From Clostridiales bacterium UBA1246 (GTDB lineage: Bacteria; Bacillota; Clostridia; Oscillospirales; Oscillospiraceae), in assembly GCA_002308315.1 (NCBI GenBank), contig DBWE01000114.1, positions 596-13,617 on the forward strand: a stretch of DNA of 13,022 nt. Direction: 5' to 3'. The number at the start of each line of letters is the position of its first letter. Within the stretch, counting starts at the first letter, position 1. Of the stretch, positions 1,164 to 2,861 are shown one piece after another. The translations under genes were made by a program, and so were the position numbers. Below the pieces are notes generated by a model, which saw nothing but the letters and a program-made list of their open reading frames with translations, made no database searches and was not told where the DNA came from.

Positions 1164-1853
1164 TCATCCGATCTCTTTGAGGATATCCCATTTAAGCCTT
1201 TTGATTATGCGCTTTTCAAGCCGCGAGATGTATGACTGTGATATCCCCATCATATCGGCGACCTCCTTTTGAGTCTGTTCCCGTACTCCGCCGAGTCCGA
1301 AGCGCAGTTTAATGATCTTTTTTTCCCTGTCGGACAAACGGCCTATCGCGCGATGAAGCAGCATTCTGTCGGTGTCGTCCTCCAGCGGCCTGATGATCGA
1401 ATCCGCTTCGGTGCCCAGCACCTCGCCGAGAAGAAGCTCGTTGCCGTCCCAGTCGGTATTGAGCGGTTCGTCAAGACTGATCTCGCTTTTCTGAGAAGCG
1501 GTTTTTCTCAAATGCATGAGTATTTCGTTCTCTATGCAGCGGGAGGCGTAAGTGGCAAGCTTGATGTTTTTCTCCGGATCATATGTATTGATCGCTTTTA
1601 TAAGCCCGATAGCGCCTATCGAAACCAGATCTTCGATATTTATCCCGGTATTTTCGAATTTTTTCGCTATATACACCACAAGCCTGAGATTATGTTCGAT
1701 CAGTCTGTTTCTCGCGCTTTCGCTTCCGCGGCTAAGCTCGAGTATGCATTCCGCCTCTTCCTGGCGGCTCATGGGGGGCGGGAGATTATCGCTTCCGCCG
1801 ACATACATTATCTCTCCGTAAAGCAGCTTTCGCAGCATGTTCAAAATACGCAT
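1164..1853 (-). CDS. sigE: RNA polymerase sporulation sigma factor sigma-E (pro-form)
   Basis: This is the mother-cell sigma factor active after asymmetric division. It has 229 residues with the full sigma-70 layout: region 2 at about 50-120 ([16 protein letters not shown], then [17 protein letters not shown] and [15 protein letters not shown]) and a region 4 helix-turn-helix at about 194-216 ([20 protein letters not shown]). The block [15 protein letters not shown] at 128-142 and the GGSDNLPPP motif after a short hydrophobic N-terminus match sigma-E rather than sigma-K, G or F. The N-terminal 16-18 residues are the pro-sequence that SpoIIGA removes near the YVGGS motif. It is shorter than the roughly 27 residues of B. 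subtilis. I chose ATG 1853 because GAGG lies 7 bases upstream. ATG 1859, two codons earlier, would overlap the spoIIGA stop as ATGA but has the GAGGA directly against it. spoIIGA ends two bases before this start, so the two genes form the classical spoIIG operon. sigG does not follow. Confidence 0.96.
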
Positions 1854-1855
1854 TT

Positions 1856-2635
1856 TCATTCCTCGCCTATAAGAGCGTCGCAGCCGCACATGCTTATCTC
1901 GGCAGGCGACATGGCCGCCCATATTCCCTCCTTCTTTTTTCCGTCGATATATACCCCGCCGGGTCTGAACGCAAGCAGGAGCCCGCCCTTGCCGTCTACG
2001 GTACGGTAGGGCACCAGACGGTATCCCGCTCCCAATTCCGGCAGCATATCCGCCGCGCCGCGATCTCCGGCCGAGCGCAGGACATTTTGCGCCTGCGGAG
2101 GAAGGAGCGGGACGAGCCTTTCTTTCCCCGCAATGATCACATGGCCGCCGGATATCGGTTCTCTGAGCTTGTTTCCGCTGTCAATGAAAGCTGTAAGACT
2201 CACCTCCCCGTACTGCGACCGGATCACGAGCTCTGCCCGCTCCCTGCGTCCGGCAAACCGAAAGGGTATCGCGCAGACGCCGGCGCTGAAAGCGAGCGAA
2301 AGCAGAAGCGCTCTCACTGTATGTATACCGAGCGCAAGCGTCAATCCCGCGAAGAGAGCATTCATGGCGAAGTATGCTCCCGCAAGACGCCATAGTCCCC
2401 TTTCCCGCCCGTAGGCCGTCAGAAGCATCAGCGCGGATATACACAGCTTGATCGGCATGGCCGTAAAGAATTGAGCAAATACCGCCGCGACGGAATATGA
2501 CGCGCCTATCAGCGCCGCTGCGGCAAGCCTGAGTTTCTTTCTGTTTTTCCCGCACAGTTTTCCGCTTGCCCACAGCATGGTAAGATCCGCGGCAAATTCG
2601 AACAGGAAAAGGCTGTCTATATAAAGCACCCTCAT
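1856..2635 (-). CDS. spoIIGA: Sigma-E processing peptidase SpoIIGA
   Basis: This is the membrane-embedded aspartic protease that cleaves pro-sigma-E in the mother cell. It is 259 residues long. The N-terminal half (about residues 5-125) is hydrophobic and should form five membrane segments. The C-terminal half is cytoplasmic and contains the protease signature FIDSGN at 150-155, with Asp152 as the catalytic aspartate, followed by a downstream beta-rich domain ending in [10 protein letters not shown]. The N-terminus [14 protein letters not shown] aligns with the usual family start, which supports ATG 2635. There is no Shine-Dalgarno sequence in front of it (the preceding bases are AATCCGGGC), and the ATG sits inside an 11-bp inverted repeat. 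GTG 2629 is a possible but unsupported alternative start. The stop at 1856-1858 abuts sigE. Transcription is probably Spo0A-dependent (see the promoter at 2642-2676). Identity is certain for the family; the mode of translation initiation is inferred. Confidence 0.94.
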
Positions 2636-2660
2636 GCCCGGATTGTACAGGCATGAGGGT
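2628..2660. repeat. Perfect 11-bp inverted repeat over the spoIIGA start codon
   Basis: The arms ACCCTCATGCC (2628-2638) and GGCATGAGGGT (2650-2660) are exact reverse complements separated by 11 bases. The spoIIGA ATG (2635-2633) lies in one arm, and the TACAAT -10 candidate lies in the spacer apart from its first bases near the far arm. There is no U-run after it on either strand, so it does not look like a terminator. It could be a DNA operator centred on the -10 element. Alternatively, in longer read-through RNA it could form a hairpin that hides the start codon. Confidence 0.85.
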
Positions 2661-2676
2661 AAGCTTGTTTGTCGAA
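2642..2676 (-). promoter_or_regulatory. Putative Spo0A-dependent spoIIG promoter
   Basis: On the minus strand an exact Spo0A box (TTCGACA, complement TGTCGAA) occupies 2676-2670. It overlaps a -35-like TCGACA at 2675-2670. A -10-like TACAAT follows at 2647-2642 after exactly 22 bases. The B. subtilis spoIIG promoter is known for a 22-bp spacer, with Spo0A bound next to or over the -35 region, so this layout matches. A second near-match (GGTCGAA, 6 of 7) lies upstream at 2718-2712 inside the DUF951 gene. The -10 position predicts transcription start at about 2635, on the spoIIGA ATG itself. The box, hexamers and spacing are read directly; function is inferred from the position in front of spoIIGA. 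Confidence 0.6.
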
Positions 2677-2678
2677 CT

Positions 2679-2861
2679 CTATTCCGGACGAATGACTTTT
2701 TTTATCCCTTTTTCGACCTTTGCGCGAGGCAAAAGCAGCTCATGTCCGCATCCCGAGCATCTGATGCGGAAATCCATGCCTACCCGTAGGACCGTCCAGC
2801 TGTTTGAGCCGCACGGGTGCTTCTTTTTCATTTCAAGCGTATCGTTTACACGGACGTCCAT
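2679..2861 (-). CDS. DUF951 family small zinc-ribbon-like protein
   Basis: This is a 60-residue protein of the DUF951 family (YyzM type in Bacilli), common in Firmicutes and of unknown function. The family pattern is clear: KKKHPCGSNSWTVLRVG at 12-28, DFRIRCSGCG at 30-39, and LLPRAKVEK at 43-51. Three cysteines (17, 35, 38) plus His15 could form a zinc site, although this is inference. The start is ATG 2861, preceded by GGAAAGGAG about 8 bases upstream, a strong ribosome-binding site. The gene is divergent from the hydrolase at 2971 and lies 43 bases upstream of spoIIGA on the same strand. Its 3' end overlaps the region where upstream Spo0A sites of the spoIIG promoter would sit. I see no convincing promoter of its own in 2862-2970. 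Confidence 0.9.
   Translation of the reverse strand: MDVRVNDTLEMKKKHPCGSNSWTVLRVGMDFRIRCSGCGHELLLPRAKVEKGIKKVIRPE

Follow-up and report, generated by a model that had tools for sequence, protein, structure and literature searches.

Does transcription of the sporulation operon spoIIGA–sigE begin on the spoIIGA start codon itself and, if so, what would such an arrangement do? Sigma-E commits the mother cell to sporulation, so on/off control of the gene for its activating protease is central. The question is raised by a 13,022-nucleotide stretch of DNA from Clostridiales bacterium UBA1246 (the window; contig C212 of genome G000, an assembly of 222 contigs that is 67% complete), in which the minus strand reads DUF951, spoIIGA and sigE. 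The DUF951 gene (2679..2861; PF06107, E 5.5e-29) runs in the same direction as spoIIGA (1856..2635; PF03419, E 6.6e-46), which encodes the sigma-E-activating protease, and sigE (1164..1859; Sigma70 r2/r4) begins in an ATGA overlap with the spoIIGA stop (start offset −4). A PF03419 gene followed through such an overlap by a sigma factor gene fits a spoIIG-type promoter in front of it.

The sequence-only reading had described here a Spo0A-controlled promoter that would start transcription on the A of the spoIIGA ATG, and its elements were confirmed by direct reading of the minus strand. The Spo0A box TTCGACA (2670..2676) follows two bases after the DUF951 stop and overlaps the −35-like hexamer TCGACA (2670..2675). 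A 22-nt spacer (2669–2648), the −10 hexamer TACAAT (2642..2647) and six further bases, CCGGGC (2641–2636), lead to the ATG (2635–2633), 43 nt from the DUF951 stop. On the basis of the −10 distance and the pyrimidine at −1, transcription is predicted to start at 2635. An over-long spacer before the −10 is also found in the Bacillus subtilis spoIIG promoter, and the window resembles spoIIG of B. subtilis and Clostridia in this spacer, in the spoIIGA–sigE pair and in the Spo0A box overlapping a −35-like hexamer. By itself the box is not special (with one mismatch allowed, TTCGACA gave 39 matches in the window against 41 expected), whereas TTCGACA followed 19–24 nt downstream by TACAAT occurred once, with 0.00 expected from 200 shuffles.

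No Shine–Dalgarno (SD)-like core was found before the ATG at 2635, in agreement with the sequence-only reading, whereas such a core precedes the used start in 8 of the 10 other window genes checked. An rlmI-like gene (our name) has one only near an alternative start, and at sigE, with its start in the spoIIGA stop, GAGGA precedes a second ATG. The SpoIIGA N terminus read from 2635 aligns with those of 23 relatives chosen out of 30 loci. Elsewhere in the window, a SpoIVB peptidase gene (PF05580; 5866–6861) is separated from spoIIGA by about 3 kb that include a Na/phosphate transporter gene. No known RNA family reached gathering score in the window.

We then compared the regions upstream of spoIIGA in the window's family and near relatives. 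From 255 loci (L001–L255), 219 distinct upstream regions were kept after removal of 3 loci without a usable N-terminal match, 30 duplicates, L052 (too short) and L165 and L193 (start codon not found). The set is not random: it combines the best-scoring matches with 80 named records gathered by sigE similarity, for which family membership was assumed, and includes two loci (L024 and L027) from another family of the order. Hexamers of the form TAnnnT that match TATAAT at 4 or more of 6 positions were counted by the distance from their end to the start codon. This distance was 6 nt in 52 of the 219 loci and 7 nt in 9, but 0–5 or 8–13 nt in none; single loci followed at 14 and 17 nt, and counts climbed from 19 nt. 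The 61 loci at 6–7 nt compare with a mean of 2.8 and a maximum of 7 in 100 shuffles. In 127 of the other 158, the best hexamer matching at 5 or 6 of the 6 positions lay 17–59 nt upstream; the remaining 31 had no such hexamer within 60 nt. A strict SD core was present in 2/61 loci of the first kind and in 116/158 of the second, many of whose SD-core-less members show G-rich runs by eye. L223 and L226, which lack an SD core and have TACCCT at 6 nt, do not satisfy the hexamer rule; they were included on visual inspection, bringing the leaderless-type loci to 63.

Transcription starts favour a pyrimidine followed by a purine, and a start on the A of ATG therefore predicts both a pyrimidine at −1 and an excess of ATG. 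A C or T stood at −1 in all 63 leaderless-type loci against 104 of the other 156, and ATG was used in 61/63 against 92/156; the p-values for these two features ignore relatedness, and because related loci are not independent, the locus counts overstate the case. At positions −2 to −6 of the leaderless-type loci, pyrimidines occurred in only 28–38 of 63. Judged on these sequence features, namely a −10 tied to the start codon, the missing SD and the pyrimidine–purine context, the leaderless-type loci have the signature of leaderless mRNAs, and the proposed initiation on the A of ATG gains support from the coupling and the −1 base alike. The [CT]GAC core of the Spo0A box ended 22–23 nt before the −10 in 47/63 leaderless-type loci and in 86 of the 115 leadered loci with a usable −10. 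Since this geometry is equal in the two classes, the promoter is apparently the same and the start codon is placed differently. The 22-base spacer length emphasized by the sequence-only reading holds for the window, whereas the spacing in relatives is most often one base shorter. Together, the genome comparison supports the leaderless spoIIG reading well.

Leaderless mRNAs are rare in the Clostridia studied so far. Published maps give 15 potentially leaderless genes for C. difficile (PMC7438776) and put leaderless transcripts at about 2–3% in three solventogenic strains (PMC9045289); in C. phytofermentans, 4% of start sites are potentially leaderless, generally at genes that have another start and keep a ribosome-binding site (PMC5171806). 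This rarity favours an alternative in which the true transcription start lies further upstream and gives a leader without SD, the −10 at 6 nt being coincidental or serving another RNA. We consider it highly improbable: the 6–7-nt coupling, the empty flank at 8–13 nt and the invariant −1 pyrimidine need a start codon tied to the transcription start, and the other genes of G000 and of a second genome, G210, show no peak at 6–7 nt. Searches of an open-access library brought up no title about leaderless spoIIG, and the single paper there that mentions both spoIIGA and 'leaderless' does so in separate places.

The leaderless state is distributed in a few blocks. On a FastTree phylogeny of the 219 SpoIIGA proteins it needs 3 changes, compared with 54.8 for shuffled labels, and 2 of the 3 are forced by the starred branches. 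Fifty-seven leaderless-type loci form one pure clade (support 96; no leadered members), the window's own clade comprises L001, L002, L004, L236 and L238 (support 83) with the leadered L003 as its sister, and L006 is a leaderless-type singleton on a long branch. By our tally, which excludes the 7 named leaderless-type loci that carry no genus code, the 56 coded loci cover 22 genus codes, so that some twenty genera of the family appear to share the arrangement. Among named records, the sigE loci closest to the window's are from Oscillospiraceae and Clostridiales, most of these records being metagenome assemblies. Of 20 loci from the order's other families, one was leaderless-type (L343, G077) and L345 was ambiguous. 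Elsewhere in the class, none was found among the best-scoring 30 of 108 matching genomes; 29 of these 30 loci have an SD-like run, unlike the window, where the predicted transcription start coincides with the start codon.

We also looked at other genes. For spoIIAA, 30 loci were found and 27 taken on (L281, L284 and L285 gave weak or broken matches); L271, L273 and L277 were also excluded because the extracted coordinates missed the gene. The 24 usable loci, 23 from leaderless-type genomes and one from G008, included none of leaderless type and, by eye, 23 with an SD-like run, so that a leaderless spoIIAA was rejected. A leaderless spoIIE was likewise rejected: among 25 of 30 loci (L307 and L312–L315 were left out as partial matches), none had a −10-like hexamer at 6–7 nt and 24 had an SD-flagged start, the remaining one being L309 (G008). 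Nor did a genome-wide leaderless habit find support: across 119 kb of G000, which contain the window, and 200 kb of G210, distances of 6–7 nt were no more frequent than those on either side (97 and 176 genes, respectively; 94 and 182 under looser rules). At the seven named leaderless-type loci, the stricter scan returned 4 matches in 83 genes, 2 of them spoIIGA, and the looser one 7 in 103, 3 of them spoIIGA, with a small excess at 6–7 nt (4 and 3 against 1–2 nearby). These scans are insensitive, recovering 2/7 and 3/7 of the named spoIIGA genes, respectively, and the window's spoIIGA in both; because so few known cases are recovered, other leaderless genes may well exist. Possible cases, each with a −10-like hexamer 6–7 nt before the start codon and without an SD core, lie in L087 (reverse strand, 2133), L101 (15273) and L082 (reverse strand, 19041). 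Among the genes examined, the leaderless arrangement thus seems mostly specific to spoIIGA. Its putative mRNA recalls those of Actinobacteria in the TAnnnT −10, the predicted lack of a 5′ UTR and the ATG or GTG start. In Corynebacterium glutamicum, about a third of mRNAs are leaderless, with a TAnnnT −10, no 5′ UTR and an ATG or GTG start (PMC3890552). Unlike in C. glutamicum, spoIIGA stands out here against other G210 and G000 genes that form no peak, with a few further candidates in the named relatives.

What could be gained by starting an mRNA on its start codon is suggested by a feature that the sequence-only reading had overlooked, an inverted repeat at 2661–2627 around the −10 and the ATG. 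Its 5′ arm (2648..2661), lying in the promoter spacer, pairs with 2640–2627, the 3′ arm (2627..2640), which takes in the discriminator, the ATG and codons 2–3. The resulting hairpin has 14 bp and a loop of TACAAT plus C, and the ATG lies inside the stem; the region folds with a z of −3.9, and none of 200 shuffles folded as well. A gapless alignment of six genomes of the window's clade (G000, G001, G012, G151, G215 and G008) retained pairing in 95.2% of cells, and 5 of the 14 pairs had changed on both sides, a number reached by none of 500 shuffles; slid controls gave at most 2. With G265 and G341 added, 84.8% of cells paired and 6 pairs had changed on both sides. The compensating changes affect the start codon, where G008 reads GTG for ATG and CAC for the partner CAT, as well as the loop-side pairs, which are non-coding. 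The alignment indicates that the pairing is conserved by compensating changes across genera.

Two further explanations bear on this repeat. Because it is a near-perfect dyad centred on the −10, a usual location for a repressor site, it could serve as an operator in the DNA, bound by a dimeric repressor that would cover the −10 and the start. In the nine genomes searched the pattern occurred only at spoIIG and in three of them, which leaves a multi-site operator unsupported, although the pattern did not admit the variants of G008, G151 and G215 and G000 is incomplete. Compensated base changes also fit pairing better than a fixed binding sequence, and the hairpins of other lineages have unrelated sequences; an operator is unlikely. 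The second explanation makes both features by-products without function: a deletion would have shortened the distance, and template switching, a process that makes perfect palindromes and can mimic compensation, would have produced the palindrome. This is very unlikely, as the leaderless state is kept without exception in the clade of 57 and the hairpin pairs are shared by the window with G008 and G012, whose SpoIIGA proteins are 50% and 41% identical, respectively, to that of the window.

Folding predictions point to opposite states of the start codon in two kinds of RNA. In the window, the ATG has a predicted unpaired probability of 0.00 in read-through RNA and of 0.70 in leaderless RNA; across loci, the start codon in its own mRNA is unpaired with a mean of 0.66 in leaderless-type loci against 0.45 in leadered ones, for every one of which a 28-nt leader was assumed. 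A fold z below −4 occurred in only 6/63 leaderless-type loci (−4.4 to −9.3), the lowest value among the 156 leadered loci being −2.7, so hairpins do not explain leaderlessness in general. In G126 and G196, a 12-bp hairpin of unrelated sequence occupies a similar place with the ATG in its stem. G210 (L367/L131) has a 15-bp perfect inverted repeat that sets the −10 and upstream bases against codons 4–8 and leaves the ATG in the loop, with a terminator-like signal already upstream of it; 630 letter shuffles gave at most 9 pairs. A 10-bp repeat also surrounds the SD and start of the leadered L069, whose fold is nevertheless ordinary (z −1.3).

From the sequence comparisons, the best explanation, which we regard as very probable, is that a Spo0A-driven spoIIGA mRNA is leaderless and that, in the window's clade, a hairpin silences read-through RNA. 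A sigma-A promoter of the spoIIG type, presumably activated by Spo0A, would start RNA on the A of the spoIIGA ATG, and this leaderless mRNA would serve spoIIGA and, through the ATGA overlap, sigE. RNA running in from DUF951 would carry both hairpin arms and so hide the ATG, and it may also terminate at the hairpin, whereas RNA from the Spo0A promoter would begin inside the 3′ arm, lack the 5′ arm and leave the ATG free. With read-through RNA blocked and the operon's own RNA free, synthesis of the protease and of the sigma-E precursor would require Spo0A to fire this promoter. More tentatively, and with a likelihood that we put somewhat lower than an even call, the arrangement could act as a one-way lock in which spoIIGA, and through it sigE, is translatable only from an mRNA that starts on the ATG, because any longer RNA would fold over it; similar hairpins would then have arisen separately in G126/G196 and perhaps in G210. 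The terminator-like signal in G012 slightly lowers our estimate for this lock.

Outside RNA that folds over a start codon is known from the IS10/Tn10 transposase gene and phage T4 gene e, where hairpins hide the start in read-through RNA, the genes have an SD-containing leader, and the protected product is a transposase or a phage late protein. The spoIIG arrangement is similar in that RNA from the proper promoter begins inside the hairpin, here by prediction. It differs in that the hidden element is the leaderless ATG of a cellular sporulation operon.

The upstream neighbour offers a further view of the hairpin. In G000, G001, G012, G151 and G215, DUF951 lies 43, 43, 57, 52 and 96 nt upstream of the start, and predicted hairpin energies are −27.0, −25.6, −33.3, −30.6 and −30.9 kcal/mol, respectively. 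In G304, G265 and G341, a motif search of the last 700 nt did not find DUF951, a divergent ORF begins 112–135 nt upstream, and the predicted folds reach only −14.7, −10.7 and −10.9 kcal/mol; we take the longer co-directional frames upstream in these relatives to be antisense frames. Loss of hairpin and DUF951 in these three genomes may be a single event. In a motif scan, 24 of the 219 loci had a co-directional DUF951 no more than 600 nt ahead of spoIIGA: 21 leadered loci, at 93–258 nt, and three loci of the window's clade, at 43–57 nt.

A strong hairpin with DUF951 upstream fits insulation of spoIIGA from read-through. The same association suits a reading in which the leaderless mRNA is real, the hairpin acts mainly as an intrinsic terminator for DUF951 that overlaps the promoter, and the hiding of the ATG is incidental. 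The window hairpin indeed scored as terminator-like, with CTTTATAT after the stem, and in G012 a 20-bp stem, AAAGCACCC...GGGTGCTTT followed by ATTT, has the form of a two-way terminator. Against this, the window has only a poor T-run and G151 has lost it (GGGTGTTG), and the hairpins of G126 and G196, of unrelated sequence, also hold the ATG, yet are followed by TCATTTATG. We therefore regard this terminator reading as possible but rather doubtful. In a simple scan, G012 and G215 show terminator-like signals ahead of the hairpin, and the hairpin-poor G304 is flagged as well. A hairpin therefore does not just substitute for an absent terminator, and the argument from gene context is weaker than a clean on–off match would be.

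That one developmental gene is leaderless across about twenty genera, when such mRNAs are rare in studied relatives, implies selection on the very placement of the start site. The locus offers a simple test of whether leaderless initiation shuts out leaky transcription, and makes a case for asking how ribosomes initiate on leaderless mRNAs early in sporulation. If the proposed lock holds, leaderless initiation and the covarying hairpin would tie sigma-E activation strictly to the Spo0A promoter. Gene finders that rely on SD sequences may misplace spoIIGA starts in these mostly metagenome-assembled genomes.

Finally, G008, which counts against the proposed explanation, departs from its clade in both neighbour and start. 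It keeps the hairpin (−23.8 kcal/mol, predicted) with what we read as a hisC-like gene upstream, not DUF951, while spoIIGA now begins 54 nt further downstream than at its former start. Read by eye, that former start in G008 (L372) opens a 15-codon GTG frame, 6 nt after the −10, whose TGA stop directly precedes the SD-like run belonging to the current ATG; the frame is a possible leaderless upstream ORF.
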